Source: Chloroflexota bacterium (GTDB taxonomy: Bacteria; Chloroflexota; Limnocylindria; Limnocylindrales; CSP1-4). From it: DNA of 42,573 nucleotides. Position 1 is the stretch's first letter. The number at the start of each line of letters is the position of its first letter. Under the pieces are notes generated by a model. That model made no database searches, was not told where the DNA came from, and worked only from the letters and a program-made list of their open reading frames with translations. Location of the stretch: NCBI GenBank assembly GCA_003152995.1, contig PMBR01000081.1, positions 1,284-43,856 of the forward strand, in the 5' to 3' direction. Shown here piece after piece: positions 19,229 to 39,981 of the stretch. Both the position numbers and the translations under genes were made by a program.

Positions 19229-19250
19229 GTTAACCGTGGGTTCACCGGCT
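19229..19250 (+). promoter_or_regulatory. PHO box (11-bp direct repeats)
   Basis: GTTAACCGTGG at 19229-19239 is followed immediately by GTTCACCGGCT at 19240-19250. This is the 11-bp direct-repeat layout of PhoP/PhoB binding sites (GTTCACC-type in high-GC Gram-positives). It lies 157 bp upstream of the small genes at 19407 and 19674, which precede phoU. The region 19156-19406 otherwise shows no convincing gene. Confidence 0.65.
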
Positions 19251-19406
19251 GATGACCGTGGCGACGCAGAGTGGCTTCATGGAGCTTCTGCCGCGCGATT
19301 GCCGAACCATCGCCACGTTCTGCATGCCGCCGGCAGCCATCCAAGCCGACTGCCCGCCCGGGGCGCCTGCCGGGCTCCGTCACCGATCAGAGGAGATCTA
19401 TCGACG

Positions 19407-19661
19407 ATGCCCGCGATCGAAACGCAGACCCCGACTCAGCCGACCCTGGCCGATCGGATCGCCCTGGTCCGCGCCCAGCTGGCCCCGATTCGCACCCGCC
19501 GGGCCCTCCTCGACTCGTATCGCCGCGAGTCGCTCTGCCGCCTCGCCTCGCCCGTCCCAAACGGAGGATCGGCCGTCGAAGTCCTCGATATCGCCTACGC
19601 CCTGTGCTGGGCGGAACTGGCGCCGGAGGAGGGACCGACGGATCCGAACGAATACCCATAG
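19407..19661 (+). CDS. Small hypothetical protein in the phoU group
   Basis: An 84-residue soluble protein. The middle is basic and helical (RIALVRAQLAP, RRALLDSYRRESLCRLA) and the tail is acidic (DIAYALCWAELAPEEG). No family is recognised. The ATG at 19407 has AGGAG about 11 nt upstream. The next small gene starts 12 bp after its stop, and both lie downstream of the PHO box at 19229, so a phosphate-linked role is possible but only by position. Longer upstream extensions of the frame have no start signal. Confidence 0.6.
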   Translation: MPAIETQTPTQPTLADRIALVRAQLAPIRTRRALLDSYRRESLCRLASPVPNGGSAVEVLDIAYALCWAELAPEEGPTDPNEYP

Positions 19662-19673
19662 TGGGAGTGCCGT

Positions 19674-19895
19674 ATGAATAGCCCGGCCCAGACGCTCCAG
19701 CCCTCACCCGACTATTACGTTCGGGCACTCGCGCTCTGGCCACGCCTGGAGCCGCCGCGGCTGGAACACGTTCGCCACGATCCGAATCTCATGGCTGTTC
19801 GAATCTCACGCCGGACGACGCTTTCCATGGAGGCCATCCTGGCCCTGCTGGTCGACTGCCACCACGAAACAGTATCCCCGGCCGACGGCCGGTAG
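19674..19895 (+). CDS. Small hypothetical protein in the phoU group
   Basis: A 73-residue protein with an aromatic segment (PDYYVRALALWPRLEPPRL) and a hydrophobic C-terminal helix (TLSMEAILALLVDCHHE). It starts 12 bp after the preceding small gene, with GGGAG 6 nt before the ATG, so the two are probably one operon. The family is not recognised. phoU follows 125 bp downstream. Confidence 0.6.
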   Translation: MNSPAQTLQPSPDYYVRALALWPRLEPPRLEHVRHDPNLMAVRISRRTTLSMEAILALLVDCHHETVSPADGR

Positions 19896-20020
19896 CGGAA
19901 CCTCGCGGCGTGGCAGGATGGATCGAGGGCGGCGACGGTATCCTTGCGGGGCGGAAGGGCGACTTTGCGCCGTCGCCATTCCTGAACCCAGTGCTCGCCC
20001 GCGCCGTTTGGGGTTCCAGG

Positions 20021-20704
20021 GTGCAAGACCAGGATCATTCCGCCGCTCGCGGTCACCGCGACGTGTTCGACCGCGAGCTTCGTGAGGTCAAGGAAGCCAT
20101 CGTCCGAATGGGCGAGCGCGTTGCTGCTGCCATCGACGCCTCGGTCGCGGCATTGACGGCCTCGGACGTCGCCGCCGCCCGGGCTGTGATCGCCGCCGAC
20201 GGCGCCATCAACGACGCCCAGGCGGATTTGAACTCGCTGATCATCACGACTATTGCCACCCAATCGCCCGTGGCCCGAGATCTGCGCTTCCTGATCGCCC
20301 TGGCTCACGTTTCCTACGAGTTGGAGCGGATCGGCGATCACGCCGCCGGATTAGCCAAACGTGTGACGCGCCTGGGCCCCGGAACGACCGTTGGCGTCGA
20401 CAGCCTGGCCAGGATGGGCGAGCTGGCGAGCGATCTGCTGCACGGAGTCCTGCGCGCCCTGGTCGACCTCGATCAGGAGGAAGCGCGCCGAGTAGCCTGC
20501 GGGGACGACGAGATCGACCGGCTCTACCACGCTTACTTTGATCGCGCCCTGGCGCGGATGCGCGCCGACCCGAGCTGGGTCGACAAGGGCGCCCACCTGC
20601 TGTTCGCCGCGAAAGACCTGGAACGAATTGGCGATCGCGTGACGAACATCGCCGAGGAGGTCGTCTTCCTGGCGACCGGCGAGGTCGAGGATCTCAATCC
20701 GTAG
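20021..20704 (+). CDS. phoU: Phosphate signalling protein PhoU (copy 1)
   Basis: PhoU is a cytosolic all-helical protein that links the Pst transporter to PhoR and keeps the Pho response off when phosphate is plentiful. This copy has about 227 residues with the two repeated three-helix units, each with the metal-binding signature: [24 protein letters not shown] and [20 protein letters not shown]. The end is [16 protein letters not shown], identical in style to the second copy at 29072. I chose GTG 20021 because PhoU proteins start just before FDRELREVKEAI. A longer frame from 19910 is possible, and no ribosome binding site is clear for either. It is not adjacent to pst genes, unlike copy 2. 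Confidence 0.9.
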   Translation: MQDQDHSAARGHRDVFDRELREVKEAIVRMGERVAAAIDASVAALTASDVAAARAVIAADGAINDAQADLNSLIITTIATQSPVARDLRFLIALAHVSYELERIGDHAAGLAKRVTRLGPGTTVGVDSLARMGELASDLLHGVLRALVDLDQEEARRVACGDDEIDRLYHAYFDRALARMRADPSWVDKGAHLLFAAKDLERIGDRVTNIAEEVVFLATGEVEDLNP

Positions 20705-20745
20705 CGGCGCTCGCACGGAGGCGCGACGAGTGCGATGATCGCTCC

Positions 20746-21246
20746 GTGAATTCCCAGTCCGAGGTCCAGCTCCATCTTCTGCGCCACGCCCACGCCGGCG
20801 ATCCGATGAAGTGGTCCGGACCTGACGCGATCCGGCCGCTGTCCGAGAGAGGCCGTCTCCAGGCCGAGCGACTCGGCATGTTCCTCTTGCAGGCAGGCTT
20901 CCAGCCGGACGCGATTGTCAGCTCACCCAGGGTTCGCGCCGTGGAAACGGCCCGGCTTGTGGCGGCAGCCCTCGGGCTCCCGGTCCGCGTCGACGATGCG
21001 CTCGTCGGACCACTCGACATCGACGCTCTGGAGGCGTTGTTGGGCGCGTCGGGCGATCCGCAACGGCCCCTGCTGGTGGGCCACGATCCCGATTTCAGCG
21101 AGCTCGCCGCAGCCCTGACAGGCGCCCCCGAGCTTCCGGTTCGCAAGGGAGCGCTGGTGCGGATCGACATTGCGCGCCCGATCGAGGCCGGGGCGGGGCT
21201 ACTTCGCTGGCTCCTGCCGCCCGACCTTCTGTCGGTCCGCGACTGA
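20746..21246 (+). CDS. sixA: SixA-like phosphohistidine phosphatase
   Basis: A 166-residue histidine-phosphatase-superfamily protein. The catalytic RHG-type motif is LHLLRHAHAG near residues 9-18. A conserved Arg lies in VSSPRVRAVETARL and the second catalytic His in LLVGHDPDFSEL. The short form with RHA is the SixA branch, which removes phosphate from phosphohistidine on signalling or phosphotransfer proteins. Such genes are frequently found close to ppk and CHAD genes, as here. The GTG start at 20746 is 41 bp after phoU. Confidence 0.88.
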   Translation: MNSQSEVQLHLLRHAHAGDPMKWSGPDAIRPLSERGRLQAERLGMFLLQAGFQPDAIVSSPRVRAVETARLVAAALGLPVRVDDALVGPLDIDALEALLGASGDPQRPLLVGHDPDFSELAAALTGAPELPVRKGALVRIDIARPIEAGAGLLRWLLPPDLLSVRD

Positions 21247-21378
21247 CCGCCGGGGCGCGACGCCAGGCGCCACCATATTGACGGCCGACCAGGCGGCGGT
21301 ATGCTCGCCATCGTCGCAGGTGCACCGGGGTCGGGAGTGCGCGCCGCCGCCGCGACAGTGAAAGCAAAGAGGTTCTCG

Positions 21379-22083
21379 ATGGCCAAGGGTCGCAAGGGCA
21401 AGTCCGATGGATCGGAGCCGAAGGCTCCCAGCGCCGCGCCAAAGAAGAGCGCCGCGCCCGAGAAGGCCACGACCAAGGCGGGGCGGGAACTACGCAAGCT
21501 TCTGCAGCGGCTCGAGGTAAAGCTCGCCGACGCGGCCAAGGCCGAAGCCAAGCGGGTGCGGAGGCTGGAGGAAGCCCGCTGGCGCCGGCAACGTCTCGAG
21601 TTCTCGGTGGACGAAGCCCGGACCGCTGCCGCGGTTGAGCCGGGCGCGGCGGCCGCGAAGCCGGCGAAGACTAAAGCGCCTCGCAAGACGAAACCGGCGC
21701 CCGAAAAGAAGACCAGGGCGAAAGCCAAGGCGGCGCCCGAACCGAAGAAGAAGGCGGCGGAGCCGAAGACCAAGGCAGCTCGCAAGCCCAAGACGAAGGC
21801 AGACGCTCCGCCGGCCGCGGCCGCCGATGTCGCTCCGAGCGCTCCGGCCGGCGAGGTCGCCCCGGGCGTCGAAGCCGCTCCAGCCGGGCCGGCCGCCGAT
21901 GTCGCTCCCGCCGCCCCCGACGGCGCAGCGGTCATCGAGGCCTACTGCCTGCGCGAGAAGCGACGCGTCCAGATGCTCGACCCCAAACCTGTTGTCACGG
22001 CCAACGGTGGTTCCGCACTCTCCGGCACGTGCCCGAGCTGCGGTGCCTCCCTGTACAAGCTGGTCGGCCGAACCGCTCACTGA
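21379..22083 (+). CDS. Lys/Ala/Pro-rich protein with C-terminal DUF5679-like zinc ribbon
   Basis: A 234-residue protein with three parts. The first is a basic N-terminus and a helical, possibly coiled-coil segment (about 35-80, RELRKLLQRLEVKLADAAK). The second is a long histone-H1-like stretch of Lys, Ala and Pro (about 85-190). The last 45 residues form a domain, EAYCLREKRRVQM then LSGTCPSCGASLYKLVG, that matches DUF5679, a small zinc ribbon. The first CxxC of that ribbon is reduced to a single Cys here. Nucleic acid or polyphosphate binding is plausible from the charge but unproven. ATG 21379 is preferred, and the frame could begin at 21301. Confidence 0.75.
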   Translation: MAKGRKGKSDGSEPKAPSAAPKKSAAPEKATTKAGRELRKLLQRLEVKLADAAKAEAKRVRRLEEARWRRQRLEFSVDEARTAAAVEPGAAAAKPAKTKAPRKTKPAPEKKTRAKAKAAPEPKKKAAEPKTKAARKPKTKADAPPAAAADVAPSAPAGEVAPGVEAAPAGPAADVAPAAPDGAAVIEAYCLREKRRVQMLDPKPVVTANGGSALSGTCPSCGASLYKLVGRTAH

Positions 22084-22122
22084 CTCGCCGAAACCAGCTC
22101 CGGCAGGCGGCTGGCTCGCGCC

Positions 22123-22208
22123 GTTCGCGTCTATGCTCCCGGCCGCGCCTCGGGTGTCGCGCCGTTCGTTCGCGTCTATGCTCCCGGCCGCGCCTCGGGT
22201 GTCGCGCC
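22123..22208. repeat. 41-bp direct repeat at the 3' end of phoR
   Basis: Two identical 41-bp copies lie at 22123-22163 and 22168-22208, separated by 4 bp. The second copy contains the stop and last codons of the PhoR-like kinase gene (minus strand). The first lies just beyond the stop and so duplicates that 3' end. This is a recent tandem duplication, since there are no mismatches. Confidence 0.85.
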
Positions 22209-23471
22209 ACCGACGGCGGCCGGGGAAGTCGTGGCCGGGGAAGTCGTGGCCGGGGAAGTCGTGGCCGGCGCCAGTGGGATCGTGAACGTGAACGTGGAAC
22301 CCTCGCCCTCCTCGGATTCCACCCAGATGCGCCCGCCGTGCGATTCGACTACGTGGCGAGCGATGGAGAGGCCCAGACCGGTGCCGCCGCGGCCACGGAC
22401 TCGGGCCCTGTCCACCTTGTAGAAACGTTCGAAGATGCGGACCCGGTCGGTCGCCGGCACGCCGATGCCTGGGTCGCGGACCCAGACCAAAACCTCGCCT
22501 TCTCCCTCCCGGACACCCACGACGACCTCGCCGCCTTCGGGGCTGAACTTGACGGCGTTGTGGAGCAGGTTGATCAAGACCTGGCCGAGTCTGTCCTCGT
22601 CGCCGCGCACCGGCGGGACTCGGTCCGGCAGGTCCAGGACGACCTTGAGCCCCTGCCGCTCGGCAAAGAGTTTGAGCCGCTCCGAGTTGGACCGGGCCAC
22701 GCGGATCAGATCGACATCGTCCAGAAGCAGCTGCACAGTTCCGCTCTCGATGCGGGACAGATCGAGCAGCTCGTTGACCATCTGCGTGAGATGACCCGTC
22801 TCGATCTCGATCTTGGAGATTCGATCACGCAGGCGGGGCGAGGCGGATTCAGCCTCCCTCGCGGCGGTCTCGGCGAGCAGGCTGATAGTGGTCAGAGGCG
22901 TTCTCAACTCGTGTGACAGGTTGTCGATGAATTCCGCGCGTATTCGCTGCAAGCGCCGCAACTCGGAAACGTCTTCCAGGACGAGCCACACTCCCGAGAC
23001 CGGCGAGCGGCGAGCGCGTACGGTGACCGTCGGGGCGCCGCTGGAGCGGACGATGAGTTCGCCGTTGGCCGAGCCGAACTCCATGGCCGTCCGCGCTATC
23101 CCCTCGATTCGGGCATCGACAAATGCCTCCAGCGCCGAGCGGCCCGTCATCGTGCCGGGGCGGCGTTCGAGGATGACGTAGGCCGCCCCGTTGGCGAACT
23201 CGACGGTCAGGTCGTCCCGCAGACGCACCACCCCCGCCTTCAGGAGTTCGGTCAGGTGAATGGTGTCCTGGCCGGCCTGCTCCGCCTGCCAGCGAGCGTC
23301 GGAGGCCGCCTCCAGGGCGTCCCTGACTCGCCGTTCGATGTCTTCCGTCTCGGTGGCGCCGGTGGCGTCGCGCAAGCGCTCCAGCGTTCTACCTCGAGAT
23401 ATCGCGACGGCCAGGGCCCAGCCCAGCAGCATGGCCAGCGCAACGATGAACAGGATCTCGGGGGCATACAT
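22176..23471 (-). CDS. phoR: PhoR/SenX3-like sensor histidine kinase
   Basis: A 431-residue membrane kinase. One N-terminal helix (about 5-24) is followed by a coil, a PAS-like domain (about 75-180), a HisKA domain with the H-box FIDNLSHELRTPLTT, and a HATPase domain with N-box INLLHNAVKFS, DPGIGVP, and GTGLGLSIARHVVESHGG. A single helix and no periplasmic domain is the SenX3-type plan that senses phosphate through PhoU/Pst. The C-terminus ends in a repeated ATTSP tail made by 15-bp DNA repeats. ATG 23471 is preferred, as the membrane helix follows directly. A frame from 23510 is longer. The cognate regulator is probably the one at 41207, since the nearer one lacks the Asp. Confidence 0.92.
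   Translation of the reverse strand: MYAPEILFIVALAMLLGWALAVAISRGRTLERLRDATGATETEDIERRVRDALEAASDARWQAEQAGQDTIHLTELLKAGVVRLRDDLTVEFANGAAYVILERRPGTMTGRSALEAFVDARIEGIARTAMEFGSANGELIVRSSGAPTVTVRARRSPVSGVWLVLEDVSELRRLQRIRAEFIDNLSHELRTPLTTISLLAETAAREAESASPRLRDRISKIEIETGHLTQMVNELLDLSRIESGTVQLLLDDVDLIRVARSNSERLKLFAERQGLKVVLDLPDRVPPVRGDEDRLGQVLINLLHNAVKFSPEGGEVVVGVREGEGEVLVWVRDPGIGVPATDRVRIFERFYKVDRARVRGRGGTGLGLSIARHVVESHGGRIWVESEEGEGSTFTFTIPLAPATTSPATTSPATTSPAAVGGATPEARPGA
22219..22263. repeat. 15-bp tandem repeat inside phoR 3' end
   Basis: Three exact 15-bp units (GCCGGGGAAGTCGTG on the plus strand) encode the repeated five-residue ATTSP tail of the sensor kinase. They follow the ATP-binding domain, so the expansion probably does not disturb catalysis. 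Confidence 0.85.
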
Positions 23472-23639
23472 GCTTCGAGCATGGCACACCCCGGCCGGTT
23501 CGGCACTCACAATTCGAACGGCCAGCAGCCGGGCCCGGCTACCGCTACGCTAGGGCCATCAACAAAGGCGCGTCTGCCCCGAGGCCGAAGCTCGCTGAGC
23601 CGGACTCGAGGATGCACCTTGACGCTCCCGGAGGTACAG

Positions 23640-24260
23640 GTGCCGTCTTTTCGACTGATCCCGCGCGAGGAGCGCTTCTTCGACCTGTTCGTTCAGGACG
23701 CCGCCAACGTCCTCGACGGCGCCCGCCAGCTCGAAGCGATGTTGCGCTCGTACGAAAGTTCCGAGAAGGCTGCCAAGAAGATCCGTGAGACGGAACACCG
23801 CGGCGACGAGATCAGCCACGACATCGGCCGGCGCCTGGAATCGACCTTCGTCACGCCGTTCGATCGCGAGGAGATCCATGCCCTCATCGCCGGCCTCGAC
23901 GATATCCTCGACCTGATCGAGGAAGTGGCCGACACTTTCATCCTGTACCGAATCCAGGCGCCCACCAAGACCGCAGTGAAGCAAGCCTCGTTGATCGTCC
24001 AGGCGTGCGAAACGATCCACCAGGCGTTGAGCAACTTGCGCGGCTTCAAGGGACTCGATCCGTACATCGTCGAGATCCACCGCCTGGAGAACGAGGGCGA
24101 CCGCCTGAGCCGGTCGGCGATCGCCGGGCTCTTCGACGACGGCACCAAGACGATCGACGTCCTCAAGTGGAAGGACGTCTATGCCCTCCTCGAGGACACG
24201 ATCGACAAGTGTGAGGATGTCGCGGACATGATCGAGCGGATCGTCGTCAAGCACGCCTGA
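23640..24260 (+). CDS. DUF47/PhoU-like phosphate transport accessory protein
   Basis: A 206-residue helical protein of the DUF47 family (also called Pit accessory protein), related to PhoU: FRLIPREERFFDLFVQDAANVLDGA, RETEHRGDEISHDIGRRL, TPFDREEIHALIAGLDDILDLIEEVAD, and CEDVADMIERIVVKHA at the end. The acidic E/D-x-x-x-D motifs are the metal-binding positions of the PhoU fold. The GTG at 23640 is decided by GGAGG 6 nt upstream, and a longer frame from 23256 would run into phoR on the other strand. These genes usually sit beside pit. Here pit is 16 kb away and the neighbours are phoR and the pst regulator. Confidence 0.9.
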   Translation: MPSFRLIPREERFFDLFVQDAANVLDGARQLEAMLRSYESSEKAAKKIRETEHRGDEISHDIGRRLESTFVTPFDREEIHALIAGLDDILDLIEEVADTFILYRIQAPTKTAVKQASLIVQACETIHQALSNLRGFKGLDPYIVEIHRLENEGDRLSRSAIAGLFDDGTKTIDVLKWKDVYALLEDTIDKCEDVADMIERIVVKHA

Positions 24261-24340
24261 GCCTGCTCCCAGACCCGCGAGGGAAGTGCAGTTCCAGACT
24301 GAACACGGATCCGGTTCTACGGACCGCCGCTGAGTCCAAC

Positions 24341-24373
24341 GTTCACGACACTGGAACACTCCGTTAACAGAGC
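24341..24373 (+). promoter_or_regulatory. PHO box before the atypical regulator
   Basis: Three 11-bp units in phase: GTTCACGACAC (24341), TGGAACACTCC (24352) and GTTAACAGAGC (24363). The outer units carry the GTTCAC/GTTAAC core and the middle one is degenerate. It ends 17 bp before the ATG at 24391. Confidence 0.7.
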
Positions 24374-24390
24374 GCGGGCAGATTCGGGGA

Positions 24391-25194
24391 ATGACGCAGG
24401 CCCACAGCGACGTCCCCCCTGGCGCCGAGGCCGAACTCCGGAGCGGCAGCGTTGCCTACTCGCCGATGGCCGAGCCATATGGCGGCTGGCTCGCCCTGGC
24501 GGACCCGGATGGCCCGATGGACCTGGCTCGCCTGTTCCCTGAGGCAGAGGTACGGGTCGAGTCCACATCGGTCTCATTCGCGGATGCCCTGTCGGCCGTC
24601 GAACCCAACCTCATCGTTCTCATAGCTCCGCCGGCCGGGCCCGGAGACCTCCAGCGTGTCGCCGGCTGGCTGGCCACGCACCGCCGCTCCTCCGCCGTCC
24701 TGCTGAGCCCTCATCAGGCCGTCGCGGCCCGGCTTCACGCTCTCGAACTGGGTTTCGACGACGCCGTCGATCTGTCGTCGGACCCGATGGAGGTCGTGGG
24801 CCGCCTCTCGATTGCCGGTCGCCGGGAGCCCGGCGCCGGTCTCGCGCCCGGGAATCGGATCTCGGTCGGGGCAGGCGTGGAACTCGATCTGCGAGCCAGG
24901 GCGATCCGCCGCGACGGCCATCTGATGTCGCTCCGGCCCAAGGAACTGGCCCTTCTGGAGTTCCTGGCGCTGCATCCCGGTCGGGCTTTCTCCCGCGAAG
25001 AGTTGCTCCACAACGTCTGGCGTGGCGTCACCGGCAACGAGCGAATGGTCGATGTCTATGTCTTCTGGCTCCGCACGAAGATCGAGCGGGACCCGGCCAA
25101 TCCCGTCCATCTGGTCACCGTTCGCGGATCCGGCTACCTGTTCGATCCGCCCTCAGCAGACGAAAGCGTTAACGAGCCGCCAACACGGCGTTAA
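24391..25194 (+). CDS. OmpR/PhoB-type regulator with degenerate receiver domain
   Basis: A 267-residue protein. Residues about 165-252 are a good OmpR/PhoB winged helix (LRPKELALLEFLALHPGRAFSREELL, VDVYVFWLRTKIE, VTVRGSGYLF). Residues about 30-145 keep the receiver outline but not its chemistry. The phosphoacceptor position in EPNLIVLIAP is Ile78 where Asp is expected. The conserved Thr is Ser106, and the conserved Lys in LELGFDDAVDLSSD is Leu128. Phosphorylation by a kinase is therefore unlikely. PHO boxes lie both just before it and over its 3' end before pstS. It may be a phosphorylation-independent regulator of pst, itself under Pho control. RegX3/PhoP-like DNA binding is inferred. Confidence 0.88.
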   Translation: MTQAHSDVPPGAEAELRSGSVAYSPMAEPYGGWLALADPDGPMDLARLFPEAEVRVESTSVSFADALSAVEPNLIVLIAPPAGPGDLQRVAGWLATHRRSSAVLLSPHQAVAARLHALELGFDDAVDLSSDPMEVVGRLSIAGRREPGAGLAPGNRISVGAGVELDLRARAIRRDGHLMSLRPKELALLEFLALHPGRAFSREELLHNVWRGVTGNERMVDVYVFWLRTKIERDPANPVHLVTVRGSGYLFDPPSADESVNEPPTRR

Positions 25195-25211
25195 GCCGCG
25201 GTTCGGACCAT
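25168..25211 (+). promoter_or_regulatory. PHO box before pstS
   Basis: Four 11-bp units in phase: GTTAACGAGCC (25168), GCCAACACGGC (25179), GTTAAGCCGCG (25190) and GTTCGGACCAT (25201). The array overlaps the last codons of the regulator gene and lies 66 bp before the pstS start. It is the longest PHO box in the window, as expected for the main Pho target. Confidence 0.75.
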
Positions 25212-25276: not shown

Positions 25277-26173
25277 TTGCTCTACGGAATGCGTCGCTTC
25301 AGCGCACTGGCCATAGCGGCCACCGTCGTGCTGTCCGCGTGCTCGTCAAGCGCGACCCCGAGCCCGGCAGCGACCCCGGCATCGACCACAGGCAATTGCG
25401 TGACCGGTAGCATCACCGCTGCCGGCTCGACCGCGCTCCAGCCGCTTGTCCAGGCGGCCGCGACCAACTACGGCAAGGCCTGCCCCGGCGCGACCGTGAC
25501 CGTCAACGGCGGCGGCTCGGGCACCGGCCTCAGCCAGGTCGCTCAGGGCGCCATCCAGATTGGCGACTCCGACGTGACCGCCCAGTCCAAGCTCGCCACG
25601 CCTTTGCCGGCCGACAGCCTGGTCGACCACATCGTCGCCCGCCAGGGCTGGATCGTCGTCACCAACAAGGACGTGACCGGCGTAACCAACCTGACCACCC
25701 AGCAGAACGTCGACATCTGGACTGGCAAGGACACGAACTGGAACCAGGTCGGCGGCCCGGATCTACCGATCGTGCTCATCTTCCGCCCGGCCTCTTCCGG
25801 CACCCGCTCCACCTTCAAGAAGCTGGTCCTCAACAACGCCGTTGAGGCTACCGGCGGCCAGACCCTCACCGAAGACTCCAACGGCGCAGTGACAACCGCG
25901 GTCACGACGACCGACGGCGCAGTCAGCGTCATCGGCTTCGCCTACTACAACGACCCGGCCAACAAGCCTCTCCTCAACGGCCTCCAGCTCGACGGTGTGG
26001 ATGCCACCGTGGCCAACATGGCCAGCAGCACCTACAAGCTCGCGGCAGACGGCCATATGTATACCAACGGCCAGCCCTCCGGACTGACCGCCGCGTTCCT
26101 CGCCTATATGCTCGGCCCCGACGTTCAGGGAACGCTCATCCCGAGCCTGTTCTACGCCCCCGTCGTCCACTAG
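25277..26173 (+). CDS. pstS: Phosphate ABC transporter substrate-binding lipoprotein PstS
   Basis: The high-affinity phosphate-binding lipoprotein on the outer face of the membrane. It has 298 residues, with a signal peptide and lipobox LSAC (Cys22). A Ser/Thr/Pro linker leads to the PBP-like domain with the phosphate-binding loops AAGSTALQPL, NGGGSGTGLSQVAQG, IGDSD and FRPASSGTRSTF. The TTG at 25277 is preferred since AGGAG lies 8 nt upstream. The ATG at 25289 would also leave a short signal peptide. pstC follows after a strong hairpin, so pstS is probably made in excess. Confidence 0.96.
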   Translation: MLYGMRRFSALAIAATVVLSACSSSATPSPAATPASTTGNCVTGSITAAGSTALQPLVQAAATNYGKACPGATVTVNGGGSGTGLSQVAQGAIQIGDSDVTAQSKLATPLPADSLVDHIVARQGWIVVTNKDVTGVTNLTTQQNVDIWTGKDTNWNQVGGPDLPIVLIFRPASSGTRSTFKKLVLNNAVEATGGQTLTEDSNGAVTTAVTTTDGAVSVIGFAYYNDPANKPLLNGLQLDGVDATVANMASSTYKLAADGHMYTNGQPSGLTAAFLAYMLGPDVQGTLIPSLFYAPVVH

Positions 26174-26185
26174 ATCCCCTTCCTG

Positions 26186-26219
26186 CTCCGGGCCCCGAGG
26201 TGACGTGCGGGGCCCGGAG
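26186..26219 (+). terminator. Intercistronic hairpin between pstS and pstC
   Basis: A perfect 12-bp inverted repeat, CTCCGGGCCCCG at 26186-26197 and its complement at 26208-26219, with a 10-nt loop, starts 12 bp after the pstS stop. There is no clear T-run after it (AATTCCTG follows). It is therefore more likely a partial terminator or a 3' stabilising hairpin that raises pstS over pstCAB. Confidence 0.65.
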
Positions 26220-26260
26220 AATTCCTGTTCCCGGCCACTGAACGTGTCGAGGCAGCGCCG

Positions 26261-31227: not shown

Positions 31228-31260
31228 ATTAACGAGGCGTTCGCGGCGCGTTAATGCTGC
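31228..31260. promoter_or_regulatory. PHO box between the phosphodiesterase gene and phnW
   Basis: Three 11-bp units in phase on the plus strand: ATTAACGAGGC (31228), GTTCGCGGCGC (31239) and GTTAATGCTGC (31250). Because the TTAA cores are palindromic the array also reads in phase on the minus strand. It lies 53 bp from the phosphodiesterase start and 71 bp from the phnW start, well placed to serve both. Confidence 0.65.
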
Positions 31261-31330
31261 CCCGGCAGCCTTCGCCACGAGGCGGCCACGACTGCGGGCG
31301 CGCCGCAACCGTAGAGAAGTTCCACTCGCC

Positions 31331-33013
31331 ATGCCATACGCCGACACGGCGGCGACCGTTCGATCCTGGGCGGAAGACCGCGCCATCGCGGTGTGGACCC
31401 TGTTCGCTGGCGACCTGCCGCCGGTTGCCACAGCTACGCTCGCATGCGAATTGGAGCGGGTCCGGAAGGACGGCGCGACGGTGGTCGTCGTCATCCCGGA
31501 CGAGGTGGGGCCGACCACGGTGGAGCGCCGCCTGGCGGACATCGTGGTGCGTGGGCCGCTGGCGCCCTCTCCCTTCGGGCTCCTGGTGGCGCTGGCGGCA
31601 GCCGACATCCCCGACGTCCGCCGCCTGGGCTTGATAGGCGGTTCTCGCCACACTCTGGAAGCCGGCTTGCGGGCCGGCGCCGGAGCCGTCATCGGGATCG
31701 CGTCTCATGGCCACGCGAGCCGCGCCGAGTTGCTCCGCGGTCAACCGGACCGGATCGTCGAGGCGTCCGAATTCGCGGCTCTCGACGCATCGCTATACGG
31801 TTGCGGCAGGTCCCACCGCGAGCGCGTGCTGCTCAATCCCGGACCCGCTGTGGTCACCGATCGGATCCATCGCGCCGTCGCCGGACCGGACCTCTGCCAC
31901 CGCGAACCCGAGTACTCGGAGATCTTCGCCCGCGTGAGGGATAAGCTCTTCACCGTGGCCGGCGTCGGGGGGGATTGGAATCTGGCTCTGCTCGCCGGAT
32001 CCGGGACCGCGGCGATGGAGGCGATGGTCGGGGCTTCGGTCCGCGAGGGCCGCCGCCTGCTGGTGTGTCGCAACGGCGTCTACGGCGACCGCCTGGCCAC
32101 GATCGCGGAGCGATTGGGAATCCAGGTCACGGCCGTTCGAGCGCCCGAGACCGAACCGATCGATCCGGACGAAGTGGCCGCCGCGCTGGACGCCGATCCG
32201 ACAATCGACGCCGTCGCGGTCGTCCATCACGAAACGACGACCGGCCTGCTAAACCCCGTGCACGAGATCGCCGCACTGGCCGGAGCCCGCAACGTGCGTG
32301 TGGCCGTGGATGCCATCAGCTCGCTCGGCGCAGAGGAACTGCGGCTGGCCGGGACCGGGATCGACTTCGTTGCGTGCACCTCCAACAAGTGCCTCCACGG
32401 CCTGCCCGGTACCGCTTTCGTACTGCTTTCTCCGGCCGGCTCGGTGCGTGCATACGAGGCGCCGCGGCGGTCGCTGTATCTCGACATACCCGGCTATCTG
32501 GAAGCCCAGCGCAAGTCGAGCGTTCCGTTCACTCCCGCGGTGCCGGCTGTCTACGGCCTCGAAGCCGCCCTCGAGGAGCTTCTCGACCAGGGCATAGTGG
32601 AGCGACGCGCGGCCTACCGAGACCGCGTCGCCTTCCTCGATCGGGCGTTCGAGAAGATGGGCCTGGAACCGACGGTCTCCGCTCCCAACCGGTCGTCCTC
32701 GGTGCGCAGCTTGCGACTCCCCGACGGCGTCGACTACGGCCTTCTCCACGATGCCGTCAAGCGCGACGGCTATGTCATCTACTCCGGCCTTGGCCAGGCG
32801 GCCGCCACGACCTTCCGAGTGTGCACTCTAGGCGCGCTCGAGCTCGAGGTCCTGGGCGACTTCGTCGATTCGCTCGGACGGGCGCTGGCCGAGGCGAGAC
32901 TCTCGGGTGTGGCGGCTAGATTGACCAAGCCACCCCACGAGAGCACCGACCCTTCCGCCGCGGAGTTGGCGCCTACGGGGACCGGGAGCCGGCACCATAG
33001 GGCATCTCGATGA
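31331..33013 (+). CDS. phnW: 2-aminoethylphosphonate-pyruvate transaminase with degenerate HAD N-terminal domain
   Basis: PhnW converts 2-aminoethylphosphonate and pyruvate to phosphonoacetaldehyde and alanine. The 560-residue product is about 190 longer than usual. Residues about 166-535 are the class V aminotransferase domain: LLNPGPAVVTDRI, LLAGSGTAAMEAM, VHHETTTGLLNPV, AVDAISSLGAEEL, and the PLP lysine K353 in CTSNKCLHGLPG. Residues 1-160 resemble the second half of a HAD hydrolase (LERVRKDGATVVVVIPD, PLAPSPFGLLVAL, GGSRHTLEAGLRAGAGAVIGI). The nucleophile motif is absent and the Lys and Asp of motifs III and IV are replaced. ATG 31331 is chosen because upstream extension would cross the PHO box. 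It overlaps phnX by 4 bp. Confidence 0.93.
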   Translation: MPYADTAATVRSWAEDRAIAVWTLFAGDLPPVATATLACELERVRKDGATVVVVIPDEVGPTTVERRLADIVVRGPLAPSPFGLLVALAAADIPDVRRLGLIGGSRHTLEAGLRAGAGAVIGIASHGHASRAELLRGQPDRIVEASEFAALDASLYGCGRSHRERVLLNPGPAVVTDRIHRAVAGPDLCHREPEYSEIFARVRDKLFTVAGVGGDWNLALLAGSGTAAMEAMVGASVREGRRLLVCRNGVYGDRLATIAERLGIQVTAVRAPETEPIDPDEVAAALDADPTIDAVAVVHHETTTGLLNPVHEIAALAGARNVRVAVDAISSLGAEELRLAGTGIDFVACTSNKCLHGLPGTAFVLLSPAGSVRAYEAPRRSLYLDIPGYLEAQRKSSVPFTPAVPAVYGLEAALEELLDQGIVERRAAYRDRVAFLDRAFEKMGLEPTVSAPNRSSSVRSLRLPDGVDYGLLHDAVKRDGYVIYSGLGQAAATTFRVCTLGALELEVLGDFVDSLGRALAEARLSGVAARLTKPPHESTDPSAAELAPTGTGSRHHRASR

Positions 33014-33840
33014 CCGCGACCGAACCGCGCGCTTCTTGCCGGCGACTGCGCGCCGTCATCCTCGACTGGGCGGGCACGACCCAGGACCACGGCTCCCTGG
33101 CGCCGGTGGGAGCTTTCGTCCGGGCCTTCGGGGAGTTCGGGGTCTCGATCACGATGGCCCAGGCGCGAGGGCCTATGGGCATCTACAAGCTCGATCACAT
33201 CCGCGCGATTGCGGCCGAACCCGCGGTGGCAGATGAATGGCGGCGCGTGCACGGGGCGCCGTGTGAGGAAGCCGACGTCCAGGCGATCTACCGGGCCCTT
33301 GTCCCGATCCAGGAGGCCGTCCTCCCTCAGTTCTGCGATCTGATTTCGGGCACCGTCGAGGCTGTCTCAGAGGTACGAGCCCGCGGCTACCGCATCGGAT
33401 CGACGACCGGTTATCCCAGGAGCGTCGGCGAGATTGCCGCCCGGGAGGCCGCCAGACGCGGGTACGAGCCCGACACGATGGTCTGCGCGGACGAGGTGCC
33501 GGCCGGACGGCCCGAGCCGTGGATGCTGCTGCGAGCCATGGAGACGCTGCGGGCCTTCCCGCCCTGCGCAGTGGTCAAGGTCGGCGACACCCGGGCTGAC
33601 ATCGACGAAGGCATCAACGCCGGCACCTGGACGGTGGGCGTGACACGGACCGGGACCTATGTCGGACTCGCAGCGGACGAGCTGGCGACCCTCACCGCCG
33701 CAGACAGGGCCGGGCGAATCCGCGAGGCGGCGGAGATCCTGCGAGGCCAGGGGGCCCACTACCTGGTCGAGTCGATAGCCGAGTTGCCGCCGGTGCTCGA
33801 CGACATCGAGATCCGGCTGGCCCTGGGCGACCGGCCGTAG
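33010..33840 (+). CDS. phnX: Phosphonoacetaldehyde hydrolase
   Basis: PhnX cleaves the C-P bond of phosphonoacetaldehyde to acetaldehyde and phosphate, finishing the pathway begun by PhnW. It has 276 residues of HAD fold. The nucleophile is D19 in ILDWAGTTQD, the Schiff-base lysine is K60 in GPMGIYKLDHIR, motif II is GSTTGYPRS, motif III lies in AGRPEPWMLLRAME, and motif IV is VKVGDTRADIDEGINAG. ATG 33010 overlaps the phnW stop (ATGA), so the two are made together. Confidence 0.96.
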   Translation: MTATEPRASCRRLRAVILDWAGTTQDHGSLAPVGAFVRAFGEFGVSITMAQARGPMGIYKLDHIRAIAAEPAVADEWRRVHGAPCEEADVQAIYRALVPIQEAVLPQFCDLISGTVEAVSEVRARGYRIGSTTGYPRSVGEIAAREAARRGYEPDTMVCADEVPAGRPEPWMLLRAMETLRAFPPCAVVKVGDTRADIDEGINAGTWTVGVTRTGTYVGLAADELATLTAADRAGRIREAAEILRGQGAHYLVESIAELPPVLDDIEIRLALGDRP

Positions 33841-35200: not shown

Positions 35201-36373
35201 TCAGACCCCTGGCGGCGTGGTTGGCGTCGCCGGCGTGGTTGGCGTCTGACGCGCCGCCTCGGCAGCGGATCGACCGGCGATCACGCGGCTCGCTTCGACC
35301 GGGACCCTGACCGCAAGCTCGCTCCCGGCCGGCCAGCGTCCGGCACTCGCGCTGGGAACGTCCACCGCAATCCGCCGGGTCGGCGGCAGCGCGGGTCCCT
35401 CCCCGGCGCCGGCCGGGAACTCGCGGATGAGGAGCCTCGTCGTGGCCCCGAGAAACGTCTGCACCTCCACCTGCCCGGTCAGGGTCAGGTCGCCGTTCAG
35501 CGACCCGTTCGTCGCCGACAGCGGTTCGAGCGACTCCGGTCGGACCAGCAGGAGCGCAAGCTCCCCGTCCGCGAGCCCGGCGGCCCCCGGAGCCGTTACG
35601 CGGTGTCCCCGCCGTTCGACGAGCCCCTGCGCCCCCGACACGATTCGCACAGGGATCTCGTTCATCGCGCCGATGAAGCCGGCCGTGAACGCGGATCGCG
35701 GTTCGGCGTAGACCTGCGCAGGCGTGCCGACCTCCTCAATCGCTCCGCGGTTCATGACCACCACACGGTCGCTGATCGACAGCGCCTCGGATTGGTCGTG
35801 CGTGACCAGGATCGTCGTGATGCCCAGTTGAGTCACCATCCGGCGGATCTCGGTGCGCAGCTCCTCACGAACCTTGGCGTCCACGGCGCTGAGCGGCTCA
35901 TCGAGCAGCAGCACTCCCGGCTGGATCGCGACGGCCCGCGCCAGAGCGACCCGCTGCTGCTGGCCACCAGACATCTGGTGTGGGTAGCTCCCGGCCACGT
36001 GGGCCAGCCCGAAGAGCTCGAGCAGCTCGGCGACCCTGGCTCGCCTGTCGGCGAGAGGGCGCTTGCGAACAGCGAGGCCGAACTCGACGTTTTCGGTGGC
36101 CGTCATGTTCGGGAAGAGGGCGTATCCCTGGAAGACCATTCCCATCCCGCGTTTGTTGGTGGGGATCTCGGTCATGTCGACGCCGTCAACCACGACAGAG
36201 CCGCTATCGGGCGCCTCGAAGCCCGCTGTCATGCGGAGCGTCGTCGTCTTGCCGCACCCCGACGGGCCGAGGAACGAGACGAGTTCGCCGTCATCGACGG
36301 TGAGGTTGAAGTCGCTGACCGCAACCTGATCGCCGAAGCGTTTGGTGACGTTGACCAGTTCGAGACGAGACAT
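35201..36373 (-). CDS. phnT: 2-aminoethylphosphonate-type ABC transporter ATP-binding protein
   Basis: A 390-residue ATPase of the PotA/FbpC/PhnT class. Walker A is GPSGCGKTT, the Q-loop region is GMVFQGYALFPNMTATENV, the signature is MSGGQQQR, Walker B is VLLLDEPLSAVDAK, and the H-loop is VTHDQSEA. A C-terminal TOBE-like regulatory domain of about 130 residues follows. The last residues are a Thr/Pro repeat (TPTTPATPTTPP). The context with phnW and phnX supports a phosphonate substrate, although spermidine, iron and thiosulfate importers share the same ATPase type. ATG 36373 lies 22 bp after the permease stop. Confidence 0.9.
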   Translation of the reverse strand: MSRLELVNVTKRFGDQVAVSDFNLTVDDGELVSFLGPSGCGKTTTLRMTAGFEAPDSGSVVVDGVDMTEIPTNKRGMGMVFQGYALFPNMTATENVEFGLAVRKRPLADRRARVAELLELFGLAHVAGSYPHQMSGGQQQRVALARAVAIQPGVLLLDEPLSAVDAKVREELRTEIRRMVTQLGITTILVTHDQSEALSISDRVVVMNRGAIEEVGTPAQVYAEPRSAFTAGFIGAMNEIPVRIVSGAQGLVERRGHRVTAPGAAGLADGELALLLVRPESLEPLSATNGSLNGDLTLTGQVEVQTFLGATTRLLIREFPAGAGEGPALPPTRRIAVDVPSASAGRWPAGSELAVRVPVEASRVIAGRSAAEAARQTPTTPATPTTPPGV

Positions 36374-36394
36374 GCCGATCGTGACCTCACCGTG

Positions 36395-37288
36395 CTACAT
36401 GGGGCCGCCGCGGACGATCTGAGTGCCGGGGGCTCTGCGGGCGACGACGGCCAGGGCGATCACGCCGGCCCACGTGATCACAAAGCTGACGATGACAAGC
36501 GCTTCCCCCTCGCGTGGCTGGTAGCCGTTGATGTTGAGGAGGTACACGGGGAAGGTTGGGTACCCGAGCAGAGCGGCGAGCGTGAACTCGCCCATCGCCG
36601 TAGTAAATGCCAGCAGCGCTCCCGAGACCAGGCCGAGCGAGATGGACGGCACGATGACCCGCAGGAATGTGCGCATCTGACCGGCGCCGAGGCTTGCCGA
36701 CGCCTCGGTCAGGGTTCGAACGTCCACCGCACGCAGAGCGTTGTCGACGGCGCGAAAGACGAACGGCAGCGTGAGGACGAAGTAGCCACCCATGAGCAGG
36801 ACCGGCGCCCATGACGAGGCGATCAGGTTCACGGGTGAGTTGATGCCGTACGTCGATTCGAGCCCGACCGCCAGGATGATCGGCGGGATGACGAACGGCA
36901 GGATCGTCAGGAATTCGATCGTGGAGCGCAGGCGCTGGAACCGCAGTTCCACCAGATACGCCGTCGGAGCGACCACTATCAAGGCAAGGAGCGTCGTCGC
37001 GATCGAGTACATCAGACTGAGCTGAAGCGAGGTCTGGAAGCCGTCATCGGCAAGGCCGTCCCACAACGGCTGCAGAGTGAAGTGCTTCCCTGTCGAGAAG
37101 CCAAAGACAGCGGTCGCATAGAGCGGCAGGAGGAAGTAGACCACCGCCACCATCAACACAACCGCCGCCCAGGCCGGGGTCCGGCGAGCGCGTCCCGTTC
37201 GCCGCGAAGCTCTCTCCCTGGCGCGGGCTCCGGGGAGGATGGCGATTGCCTCTTCGGTCGCTTCGCCGGTGATCGACGGGTTGCTCAT
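36395..37288 (-). CDS. phnV: ABC transporter permease, phosphonate-type (PhnV-like)
   Basis: A 297-residue permease with six helices after a basic N-terminus of about 40. The EAA loop reads VDVRTLTEASASLGAGQMRTFLRVIVPSISLG. The end is short and basic. ATG 37288 has GAGGAGG at the right spacing, and this site contains the stop of the preceding permease gene, so translation is coupled. It pairs with the permease at 37299-38195. Confidence 0.9.
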   Translation of the reverse strand: MSNPSITGEATEEAIAILPGARARERASRRTGRARRTPAWAAVVLMVAVVYFLLPLYATAVFGFSTGKHFTLQPLWDGLADDGFQTSLQLSLMYSIATTLLALIVVAPTAYLVELRFQRLRSTIEFLTILPFVIPPIILAVGLESTYGINSPVNLIASSWAPVLLMGGYFVLTLPFVFRAVDNALRAVDVRTLTEASASLGAGQMRTFLRVIVPSISLGLVSGALLAFTTAMGEFTLAALLGYPTFPVYLLNINGYQPREGEALVIVSFVITWAGVIALAVVARRAPGTQIVRGGPM

Positions 37289-37298
37289 GCCGTCCTCC

Positions 37299-38195
37299 TC
37301 ACCGTGCCAGCCAACGCGTAGATCGGCGCTCCAGGATGGCCCGGCTGCCGATGCAGATGGCCATGATCACGGCCAGCCCGATTGCCAGCGCATCCGCGAC
37401 GCCCAGGTTGTGACTGACGTCCCCGTTGGTGAGATTCGAAATCTCGATCGGCACGAGGGACACGAACCCGGTTGTCAATCCGTAGGCGGTCGCGTAGGCG
37501 CCGAAGGCGTTCGCGTAAAGGAGCAGCAGCGACGAGATGAACGGCGTCATAAGGATCGGGATGGCGACCGAGCGCAAGTATTGCCAGCGGCTCGCGCCCA
37601 GGATCTCTGCGGCCTCGCGCCAGGACGGCTTCATCGCCTGAAGCGGCGGAAGCATCACCAGCACCATCAGCGGGATCTCCCAGTAGGCGTAGACGACTAT
37701 CAGGCCCATTAGCGAGCGGAGCCTGAAGCCGCCTTCATTGATGTCAATCCCGTTGTTCTTCAGGGCCACGGTGATCAGGCCGTTGAGGCCGAGGGTCGCT
37801 CCGAACGCGAAGGCCAGCGGTACACCGGCGAAGTTGGCCGCGACGCTGCTGAAGGTGGTGGCGATCTCCTGGACGATGGGGCGGCGCGAAGACACGATGG
37901 CCTGGGCGATCAGCAACCCGACGACGCTCCCCAAAATCGTCGCGGCCAGCGACAACTCCAGCGAGTTGCGGAAGGGCACGAGGTCCAGCGGGTCGCCCAG
38001 GTACGAGTAGTTGGACAGGGTGAACGCGCCCGTGTTGCTGTCATGGAAGCTGCCCCAGACCAGCGCAACGGTAGGCACGAGCAGGAAGGCCCCGACGAGG
38101 ATGGCGAACGGGATCAAGGCAAAGGCGGCGCGCCCACCACGTCGTCTAGTCGCGATGGGCGCGCCAGCGAGAGGACCGTCGGTCGGAGAACGCAT
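37299..38195 (-). CDS. phnU: ABC transporter permease, phosphonate-type (PhnU-like)
   Basis: A 298-residue permease with six helices. FALIPFAILVGAFLLVPTVALVWGSF is the first, and the EAA loop is MKPSWREAAEILGASRWQYLRSVAIPILMTP. The ATG at 38195 has GGAG 7 nt upstream. The open frame extends to 38837 but that part is antisense-type translation of the binding-protein gene. It is 29 bp after that gene's stop. Confidence 0.9.
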   Translation of the reverse strand: MRSPTDGPLAGAPIATRRRGGRAAFALIPFAILVGAFLLVPTVALVWGSFHDSNTGAFTLSNYSYLGDPLDLVPFRNSLELSLAATILGSVVGLLIAQAIVSSRRPIVQEIATTFSSVAANFAGVPLAFAFGATLGLNGLITVALKNNGIDINEGGFRLRSLMGLIVVYAYWEIPLMVLVMLPPLQAMKPSWREAAEILGASRWQYLRSVAIPILMTPFISSLLLLYANAFGAYATAYGLTTGFVSLVPIEISNLTNGDVSHNLGVADALAIGLAVIMAICIGSRAILERRSTRWLAR

Positions 38196-38224
38196 CGTCG
38201 CGCTCCGAGTCGTGCTCTTCGCCG

Positions 38225-39496
38225 CTAGGAGTTGACGACGATCTTCCAGCCGGTTCCAAGAATGGTCTTGGCGGCCGTGATCTTCGCGATGTCGGTGACG
38301 ATCGTGACCTTCTTGTAGAGGTCGGCCGACGGGAGCTTGGCTGCCAGGTCCGCGGGGATCTTGCCGGCAGCGGTGAGGGCGTCGAACCGGATCGGGTGCG
38401 CGTACCCCTTGAGGAAGAGGAGCTGCGCGGCGTCGCTGTAGATGAGTTCCTGCCAGAGCTTCGCGGCGTTCGGATGAGGCGCCTTGGCGGCGATGATGTC
38501 CGCATACGGGCTCGCGAGCGACCCGGAGGACGGGATCGTGACCGTGATGTTGGGAGCCCCGGCAGCCTTGTCGCGGACGGCCAGACCGAGGTAATCCCAC
38601 TTGATCGCGATCTTGACTTCGCCGCTGAGGATGTTCGCGTCGCTCGCACGAGCAGCGGTCAGGTTGCCCGACTGCTGAAGCTGGTTGAAGAAGTCGATAC
38701 CGGGCTGGATGTTGTCGATACCGCCGCCATTGGCGATGGCCGCCGACCACACGGCGAAGAAGGAGTCGTTTGCCTTGGTGGGGTCGCCGTCGATGCCGAC
38801 CGCGTTCTTCAGGGACGGATCGAGCAGATCCTTCCAATCGTTGATCGGGATCTTGACCGCGTCGGTATTGACGGCGAAGGCCTGGGCGCCCCAGTAGTTG
38901 CAGGCCCAGTACCCGTCGGCGTCCTTCGCGGTGTCGGGGATGTCCGCCCAGTAAGAGTTCTTATAGGGCGCGGACAACCCGTCCGTCTTCGCCTGCACGG
39001 CAAAGGAAATACCCACGTCGCCGACGTCCGGCTTGCCCGTGTTCTTGATCGAGTCCAGTTCCTGGCCCGAGCTGTATTCGCCTTCGGTCGAGGTGCCGTT
39101 GATCGTGATCCCGTAGTTCTGCTTCCAGAGGTCGAAGATCGCCTGGTAGTTGACCCATTCGGGCGGAATGCCCGTCTGGTAGAGGCTGCCCTCACCCTTG
39201 GCGGCCGCAATGAGAGCCGTCGGGTCGAAGGTCGCGGCTGCCAGGGTGGCAGCTGCCGACGCGGTGGCCGGGACGGCGGTGGCCGGAGCCAGAGTGGCCG
39301 GCGCCATGGTGGCCGGCGCCAGGGTGGCCGGCGACGGAGTGGCAGCACTGCTGCAGGCGGCGACAATCACGCCGATCGCCGGCAGGCTGAGCCCCAGACC
39401 AATCAGTCCCTTGAGGAATCGGCGGCGGTCGATCTGACCCGCAGTGAAGGCACCGCTGAGCTCGTCGATCCGCGAAAGCAATGGGTCGTTCGCCAC
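38225..39496 (-). CDS. phnS: ABC transporter substrate-binding lipoprotein, Tat signal (PhnS-like)
   Basis: A 423-residue extracellular binding protein. It carries a twin-arginine signal (RRRFLKG at 24-30) and a lipobox ending in Cys48 (VAAC), so it is folded before export and then anchored as a lipoprotein. Residues about 50-85 are a Pro/Ala/Thr linker with PAT(L/M)A repeats. The rest is a type II solute-binding fold (iron/AEP/spermidine class) with SPYADIIAAKAPHPNAAKLWQ. The GTG at 39496 follows TAGGAGG at good spacing. It is first in the operon and lies behind a PHO box. The substrate 2-aminoethylphosphonate is inferred from phnW-phnX. Confidence 0.9.
   Translation of the reverse strand: MANDPLLSRIDELSGAFTAGQIDRRRFLKGLIGLGLSLPAIGVIVAACSSAATPSPATLAPATMAPATLAPATAVPATASAAATLAAATFDPTALIAAAKGEGSLYQTGIPPEWVNYQAIFDLWKQNYGITINGTSTEGEYSSGQELDSIKNTGKPDVGDVGISFAVQAKTDGLSAPYKNSYWADIPDTAKDADGYWACNYWGAQAFAVNTDAVKIPINDWKDLLDPSLKNAVGIDGDPTKANDSFFAVWSAAIANGGGIDNIQPGIDFFNQLQQSGNLTAARASDANILSGEVKIAIKWDYLGLAVRDKAAGAPNITVTIPSSGSLASPYADIIAAKAPHPNAAKLWQELIYSDAAQLLFLKGYAHPIRFDALTAAGKIPADLAAKLPSADLYKKVTIVTDIAKITAAKTILGTGWKIVVNS
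39264..39338. repeat. 15-bp tandem repeat in the binding-protein linker
   Basis: Five 15-bp units begin at 39264, 39279, 39294, 39309 and 39324. The type unit is GTGGCCGGCGCCATG on the plus strand, with one to five changes between units. They encode the PAT(L/M)A linker between the lipid anchor and the binding domain. Confidence 0.75.
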
Positions 39497-39981
39497 GGGG
39501 ATCCTCCTAGTTTCGGTTCGAGCCGACGCATCGACGCGTTCCGGCTCCCTCGCTCCAGTTCAGTCAGCGGGCGGTAGACAATCGCTTGACGGCGGCTGAC
39601 CAGCGATAGACTCGCCGCGCTTCGTTAGGCCGGCGTTAACGGCTGGTGAACGTCTGCGGAGATCGCGGCCGACTCCTCGGACGCCCGACCCCGTGAGGTC
39701 GGCGACGACGGCCTTGCGCGGCCGCCGCTCGAGGTGCTGCGTCGGCGGTCAGCCCTTCCCCGGTGACTCGCCGACATGGAGCGCCTGCCCGAGCCGGGAG
39801 CCGGGTGTCAGCGGCTGAGGCACGGATCGCACTCGGTGCGCGACCCGGCGGGTCGCCGTGGCAGGGATTGCCAACGGCCGGTCGGACAAAGGACTGGGAA
39901 CAGGGGCGCGCGCGACCTGATAGCCTCTCCAGTGCGGCGGCCCCTGTCGCGGTTTCTCCGTCAACGTAAGGGCGTGCAGGT
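39497..39981. other. 485-bp intergenic region between phnS and pit
   Basis: The left third holds the leader of the phosphonate operon and the PHO box at 39619-39656. From 39657 to 39981 I find no gene. The short open frames here have skewed composition and no ribosome binding site. A TAGCCT near 39922 could be a -10 for pit, but this is weak. Confidence 0.6.
39619..39656 (-). promoter_or_regulatory. PHO box before the phosphonate transporter operon
   Basis: On the minus strand GTTCACCAGCC (39651-39641), GTTAACGCCGG (39640-39630) and CCTAACGAAGC (39629-39619) follow each other at 11 bp. The first two carry the GTTCAC/GTTAAC core. The site is about 120 bp upstream of phnS. Because the core is palindromic, an in-phase reading on the plus strand (39624-39656) is also possible, so pit, 326 bp away, might be affected. 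Confidence 0.7.

Follow-up and report, generated by a model that had tools for sequence, protein, structure and literature searches.

Putative PHO-box promoters of phosphate, phosphonate and pseudo-receiver regulator genes in a Chloroflexota lineage

This work concerns five repeat elements in a stretch of 42,573 nucleotides (the window; contig PMBR01000081.1, G000:C119:1284-43856) from a Chloroflexota bacterium of the Limnocylindrales, the genome of which comprises 3.05 Mb and is 73% complete. The elements, read here as PHO boxes, lie among phosphate and phosphonate genes and are very probably the putative on-switches of phosphate-starvation genes. The locus contains a pstS-pstC-pstA-pstB-phoU operon (25277-29962, plus strand), preceded by a gene for a PhoB/OmpR-like regulator of 267 amino acids with a winged helix (24391-25194, plus strand), which is termed the pseudo-receiver regulator below, as it has neither the phospho-Asp nor the conserved Lys of receiver domains. 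Further upstream on the plus strand are a small open reading frame (ORF) for 84 amino acids without a Pfam match (orf19407, 19407-19661), a gene for a second PhoU-domain protein (phoU2, 20021-20704; PF01895, E 5.8e-40) and a gene for a DUF47/PhoU_div accessory protein (23640-24260; PF01865, E 9.1e-30), while a PnpS/PhoR-like histidine kinase is encoded on the minus strand (22176-23471). Downstream of the pst operon, a gene for a type I phosphodiesterase/alkaline-phosphatase-superfamily protein (30057-31187, minus strand; PF01663, E 5.6e-24) diverges from two plus-strand genes for a PhnW-like 2-aminoethylphosphonate transaminase (31331-33013; TIGR03301, 301.4 bits, below the cut-off of 360.8) and the phosphonoacetaldehyde hydrolase PhnX (33010-33840; TIGR01422, 310.9 bits, cut-off 220). 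An ABC importer operon for a binding protein, two permeases and an ATPase follows on the minus strand (35201-39496); its 2-aminoethylphosphonate type is given by the best matches of the ATPase and the binding protein, both below their cut-offs. A canonical OmpR-type response regulator, the candidate Pho regulator, is encoded at 41207-41902 (minus strand) and recurs at 87-96% identity in the locus of relatives, where seen.

The repeated unit consists of a GTTMAC core and five free bases and recurs every 11 bp, and a refined box was defined as three 6-bp cores at 11-bp steps. All five of the GTTAAC/GTTCAC-like sites that had been proposed from a reading of the letters alone (the sequence-only reading) were found at their places in the window. 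Box 1 (19229-19256, plus strand; GTTAAC/GTTCAC/GATGAC) is the putative promoter of orf19407-phoU2 and is conserved ahead of orf19407 in the genus; its earlier extent, 19229-19250, had missed the degenerate third unit GATGAC. Box 2 (24341-24368, plus strand; GTTCAC/TGGAAC/GTTAAC) starts exactly 50 bp before the ATG of the pseudo-receiver regulator gene, and box 3 (25168-25195, plus strand; GTTAAC/GCCAAC/GTTAAG) overlaps the 3' end of that gene, ahead of pstS. Box 4 (31228-31255; ATTAAC/GTTCGC/GTTAAT), also called the phn box, can be read on both strands, and box 5 (39624-39651, minus strand; GTTCAC/GTTAAC/CCTAAC) is the putative promoter of the importer operon. The description of some sites as two cores 22 bp apart with a degenerate middle unit is accurate for those at 24341, 25168 and 31228. 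Because GTTAAC is palindromic, the cores alone cannot give the direction of a box, which was taken from the -10 hexamer described below. By this rule the fifth site, real as a site, lies on the minus strand and reads towards the binding-protein/ABC operon, which the sequence-only reading had not recognized; a plus-strand assignment was discarded, with the -10 on the minus strand and matrix scores of 32.9 bits (minus) and 9.2 bits (plus).

This hexamer holds a regular position. Among 53 instances from the genus, the sequence NANNNT, read towards the gene, starts exactly 10 nucleotides past the last core in all 53, and its first base is C or G in 52; at the other offsets from 2 to 25 it occurs in 0 to 8 instances. 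In other genera, 20 of 20 distinct four-unit boxes have NANNNT at the same offset, 19 of them with C or G at the start. All five window sites obey the rule: CAGAGT for box 1 (19267-19272, plus), CAGATT for box 2 (24379-24384, plus), GACCAT for box 3 (25206-25211, plus), CACCTT on the minus strand (31212-31217) facing the phosphodiesterase gene and CAGCCT on the plus strand (31266-31271) facing phnW for box 4, and GAGTCT for box 5 (39608-39613, minus). Since NANNNT is fixed at this distance, the sites look like promoters in which the PHO box adjoins the -10 and replaces the -35 element; the geometry holds in 53/53 and 20/20 cases, and the hexamer is the predicted working -10. The 53 instances (regulator 14, pst 16, phoU2 10, phn 7, importer 2, and 4 before a CBS-GGDEF gene) are the sites of scans with at most three mismatches plus L062; the regulator boxes of L073 and L081 entered the set by position and not from a scan. 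Reverse readings, one-unit register shifts (L070, L078, L081) and matches near the L087 regulator were not counted as sites. Left out of the set were the pst boxes of G055 (L075) and G052 (L101), both boxes of G103 (L100), the phn boxes of L079 and L080, the regulator and pst boxes of G102, the box of a second pstS in G098, the importer box of G052 and the by-eye boxes of other genera; those inspected by eye or by pattern follow the same rule, except for a remnant in G103.

Box 4 looks bidirectional from its letters. A second -10 on the phosphodiesterase side was present in 6 of the 7 phn boxes tested, and by eye also in those of L079 and L080, where the phosphodiesterase gene is present. The exception, L071, has no phosphodiesterase gene found beside the box within its stretch, and so is a small natural control for the predicted bidirectional promoter. 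The hexamer of box 2 starts at -12 from the ATG, in a leaderless geometry. This agrees with the position of the leaderless signal, around -12 with the consensus TANNNT, in PMC3160421. The distance from the regulator box to the ATG is constant in 13/13 genus sequences. Among the exact matches before the regulator, from 13 genomes, the start codon always begins 7 nucleotides past the hexamer. Of 7 cases from other genera judged by eye, 5 have the last core 22 nucleotides before the start codon, as in the window, and a sixth has it at 23. The regulator mRNA is thus probably leaderless, as far as its spacing tells.

Several counts separate these sites from background. Three cores with at most three mismatches at a spacing of 11 gave nine rows at five places in the window, compared with none at any of the 18 other spacings (7-10 and 12-25), in line with the phasing that the sequence-only reading had taken as the signal; in 300 dinucleotide shuffles of the window, spacing 11 was matched at 0.017 places on average and at 1 place at most. 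The same scan of the genome returned 11 rows at six distinct places, five of them in the window (one row for the reversed-pattern control), and exact GTTMAC-N5-GTTMAC has two occurrences genome-wide, each of them in the window (control 0). The spacing, shuffle and genome counts are partly circular because the core was drawn from the sites first proposed; the less circular tests are a window-free matrix and a ranking with a site's own group left out. When relatives alone supply the matrix, the top six positions of the window (28.0-32.9 bits) are the five sites, one of which scores on either strand. The runner-up, at 13.5 bits, is box 3 read in reverse, and no place outside the boxes exceeds 12.8. 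When its own orthologous group is left out, every site ranks sixth among 85,060 positions with no non-site above it, and scoring by cores only gives ranks from sixth to eighth. A matrix scan of 61.7 kb of other loci, picked partly for the presence of weak matches, gave a best score of 19.2 bits. This sixth genomic site (L089:8834-8861, minus strand; G000:C71:9833) has TATGGT exactly at +10; it adjoins a GH99 gene and lies close to a gene of the phosphoesterase family on the opposite strand.

The distribution of exact matches in relatives points to a Pho regulon. Over 21 genomes of the genus, GTTMAC-N5-GTTMAC gave 17 matches, of which 13 precede orf19407, two precede the binding-protein operon and two fall at an arsR/arsC junction. 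The gene next to orf19407 is phoU2 in 12 of these 13; in L063 it is sixA, with no phoU2 seen. Two exact cores together with the -10 gave 39 matches in 20 of the 21 genomes and none in the control. By homology, 13 lie before the regulator, 19 before pstS and four at the phn box (two facing each way); the rest are one each for orf19407-phoU2, a binding-protein gene 31% identical to that of the window and a second pstS. Nine of the 39 had no locus, eight of them falling within annotated stretches and one being retrieved separately. This pattern was drawn from sites of the genus itself and most of the 39 are thus re-found, so that the weight of the search is the near-absence of other targets. In a family sample of 107 genomes, an exact four-unit pattern gave 21 matches in 17 genomes (control 0), four before the pseudo-receiver regulator and 17 before a pstS-type gene, four diverged cases of the latter being assigned through Pfam PBP_like_2. 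The pattern was drawn from boxes of G044, G050, G063, G095, G096 and others; 8 of the 21 matches are in the source genomes and 13, in 12 genomes, in others. By this strict pattern 90 of the 107 genomes, including the whole genus of the window, have no match. One of the 39, found by the promoter pattern alone, is the second pstS, with exact PHO box and -10, in G098 (L158:2210-3224, minus strand).

The sites have sequence features of a PHO box: at least two direct-repeat units of 11 bp with a conserved core, placed before pst, pho and phn genes and conserved in relatives. The proposed PhoP/PhoB-like reading is supported by these searches, and so is the expectation that matrix matches, with the five sites at the top, would concentrate before such genes. 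The accompanying idea that neighbours without assigned function belong to phosphate starvation reaches, behind each -10, as far as the gene or operon that comes first, and not beyond it. The boxes are of an already known kind, in a lineage for which no description was found: a limited literature search returned no PHO box or Pho regulon of Chloroflexi/Chloroflexota by title, which does not prove absence. According to PMC4415409, PHO boxes are pairs of 11-nucleotide direct-repeat units, with the core GTTCACC in Streptomyces coelicolor and CTGTCAT in Escherichia coli. As with the PhoP boxes of S. coelicolor, the units found here lie before Pho genes and vary in sequence and number; the core, in contrast, is GTTMAC, often GTTAAC, the phylum is Chloroflexota, and NANNNT stands exactly at +10 in all counted sites. 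The E. coli PHO box likewise lies near the -10 and substitutes for the -35 (PMC4971064) and is bound head to tail on two units per box (PMC4415409), whereas the boxes here have three or four units with another core, and one is apparently bidirectional. The unusual parts are this phn box and the presence of a pseudo-receiver regulator inside the regulon. For phosphate control, the outcome is a precise promoter rule (11-bp units, 10 nucleotides, NANNNT), usable for gene assignment in a family of Chloroflexota that is represented here by assemblies of the metagenome type alone, and phosphonate breakdown and import are tied to the same putative switch as the phosphate genes.

It is highly probable that, in this lineage, the five sites serve as Pho-regulon promoters of the PHO-box type, with binding and activation inferred. 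Several observations weigh against this reading. The two-unit genus search stands at 17 matches to 5 in its control, and its two ars matches score 12.6-14.5 bits only. The 53 instances carry the independent weight of six groups, not of 53, because orthologous sites are related by descent. NANNNT also occurs on the wrong strand at offset 10 in 7 of the 53, including 6 of the 7 phn boxes, and the remnant regulator box of G103 has GACAGG at +10 and breaks the rule. In G032 (L074) and G103 (L100) no box was seen before phoU2, orf19407 being absent there as well, nor was one seen at the diverged importer of G073 (L079). The sixth genomic site faces a hypothetical ORF (L089:8295-8822, minus strand) and no known Pho gene. 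The kinase and the canonical regulator, finally, score below the NCBIfam equivalog cut-offs: for the kinase PnpS 272.5 of 400 and PhoR 236.9 of 334.2 bits, and for the regulator PhoB 234.9 of 296.2 bits. The pair is for this reason described as PhoBR/PhoPR-like and is not filed as orthologues.

Three other explanations of the repeats were weighed. That they are a product of chance or a coding artefact could draw on the overlap of box 3 with a gene 3' end and on the palindromic GTTAAC, which inflates two-strand counts, but the shuffle, spacing and reversed-pattern controls speak against it, as does the hexamer exactly at +10 in every counted site; the spacing and shuffle controls rule out a chance origin, and the explanation as a whole has next to no probability left. 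The boxes might instead belong to another regulator of the OmpR family (MtrA-, GlnR- or WalR-like) that recognizes direct repeats and has phosphate genes among its targets. The best NCBIfam match of the canonical regulator is indeed MtrA, at 264 bits compared with 235 for PhoB (both below cut-off), and the genome has 18 Trans_reg_C matches. Yet the exact matches of the genus and family searches with zero controls fall on phosphate and phosphonate genes, and none of those 60 matches lies at nitrogen or cell-wall genes, which makes another regulator quite improbable. Somewhat less remote, though still unlikely, is a role of the pseudo-receiver regulator, rather than the canonical one, as the main protein binding the boxes. 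Its gene lies between two boxes and adjoins pst in three genera; on the other hand, G039, G059, G076 and G052, which have no pseudo-receiver regulator in a contiguous pst locus, keep the pst box, as does G103 with a decayed remnant only. Moreover, four-unit boxes stand before pstS-type genes in genera g6, g10, g18, g19 and g20, the sampled genomes of which contain weak matches only to this regulator (E 1e-18 or weaker than 1e-28). The reading as PHO-box promoters of a Pho regulon is retained.

The pseudo-receiver regulator is not matched by the Pfam receiver profile even at E 10. In a structure model its N-terminal half is predicted as alternating strands and helices, with a per-residue confidence (pLDDT) of about 78-90 over residues 31-140, and the best full-length Foldseek matches are OmpR/PhoB regulators (E 4e-13; template-modelling (TM) scores 0.3-0.4). 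The model points to a receiver fold, at a predicted TM score (pTM) of only 0.51 and low TM-scores, the latter perhaps reflecting a differing domain arrangement. The Foldseek matches include GlnR (8hih), RitR (5vfa/5u8k) and an atypical orphan regulator (2hqr), which we take to be HP1043. None of the 18 aligned members has the phospho-Asp or the conserved Lys, as judged by eye from the positions of the canonical regulator. The regulator is present in 15 of the 21 genus genomes and missing from the contiguous pst locus of G039, G059, G076 and G052; in G103 a decayed remnant of the gene (L100:5700-6050) still has both boxes readable, and in G085, the remaining genome, pstB was not found. The five genomes without an intact regulator keep the pst box, and the pst box is thus independent of the regulator. 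Homologues at 39-45% identity occur in two further genera, before pstS where both are within the stretch.

Pseudo-receivers without one or more of the five active-site residues, the phospho-Asp being missing in 2.0% of Pfam receivers, are discussed in PMC12632262, where their control is termed a mystery. The same source describes GlnR, ChxR, HP1043 and RitR as combining a receiver fold without active-site residues with a winged helix, as is predicted here; unlike those atypical regulators, the window protein is encoded in a pst locus, has its own PHO box and has lost both phospho-Asp and Lys. The Asp of GlnR has a role in dimerization (PMC12632262), whereas the window regulator has no phospho-Asp. 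CmrT/CmrRS is similar in that a pseudo-receiver protein is encoded with an ordinary two-component system as its presumed partner (same source); here a common promoter motif provides the link instead, and phosphate uptake is the process concerned. In a limited literature search on pseudo-receivers in the context of PhoB and the pst operon, none of the matches listed had the word pseudo-receiver.

In the mechanism that we propose, a PhoB/PhoP-type winged-helix response regulator would bind the boxes head to tail on one helix face, in the place of the -35 element, and would recruit RNA polymerase to the NANNNT (mostly [C/G]ANNNT) -10 exactly 10 nucleotides downstream. The predicted targets are orf19407-phoU2, the pseudo-receiver regulator gene, pstSCAB-phoU, phnW-phnX with the divergent phosphodiesterase gene through one bidirectional box, and the importer operon of phosphonate type. 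Most likely, the two-component pair consists of the canonical regulator (41207-41902) and the kinase (22176-23471), neither of which has a box upstream by a window matrix scan. The pseudo-receiver protein, the gene of which sits between two boxes, would most likely be a co-regulator that works independently of phosphorylation and the level of which phosphate starvation sets by way of the PHO box before its gene. More tentatively, and as a possibility that we rate below an even chance, the two-component system may induce this non-phosphorylatable PhoB-like protein from a leaderless PHO-box promoter, and the protein may then engage these same boxes, by itself or in a heterodimer with the canonical regulator, prolonging, damping or locking the starvation state after the kinase signal fades. 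If this is true, a phosphate-dose-controlled pseudo-receiver is built into the Pho regulon. The regulator would offer a clean case for the question of how pseudo-receivers are controlled, with control of abundance by a Pho promoter as the direct prediction.

Some further features of the locus were recorded. A cluster for a polyphosphate kinase, a CYTH/CHAD protein, the second PhoU, a SixA-like phosphatase and the DUF47 protein (14874-24260) adjoins pst; no PHO box of ppk1 was among the top matrix matches of the window. Short direct repeats were seen by eye around the 3' end of the histidine kinase gene (22120-22265). An ORF at 23559-24359 (minus strand) was considered as a divergent target of box 2 and rejected: it is without a Pfam match, and the gene for the DUF47 protein overlaps it on the opposite strand. 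Another minus-strand frame, orf39961, also has no Pfam match, and its composition resembles the shadow of a plus-strand frame. The PhnW-like transaminase is extended at its N terminus by about 160 residues, and part of this extension is a weak match to a PhnX-like hydrolase profile. In two relatives, matrix-weak GTTCAC/GTTAAC pairs lie at the arsR/arsC junction (L103:3907-3923 and L104:4851-4867; assigned by Pfam in L103 and by eye in L104), a possible phosphate-arsenate link. Four relatives have, in the interval from phoU to the phosphodiesterase gene, a CBS-GGDEF gene that is preceded by a PHO box and -10 of its own (L078:16444-17864, L079:6588-7988, L081:14405-15829, L102:15306-16718); the corresponding interval of the window (29962-30057) is too short for it. 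The GGDEF and CBS domains were assigned by Pfam in three of the four and by eye in L081, the translation of which contains an unknown residue; this gene possibly links phosphate starvation to cyclic-di-GMP.

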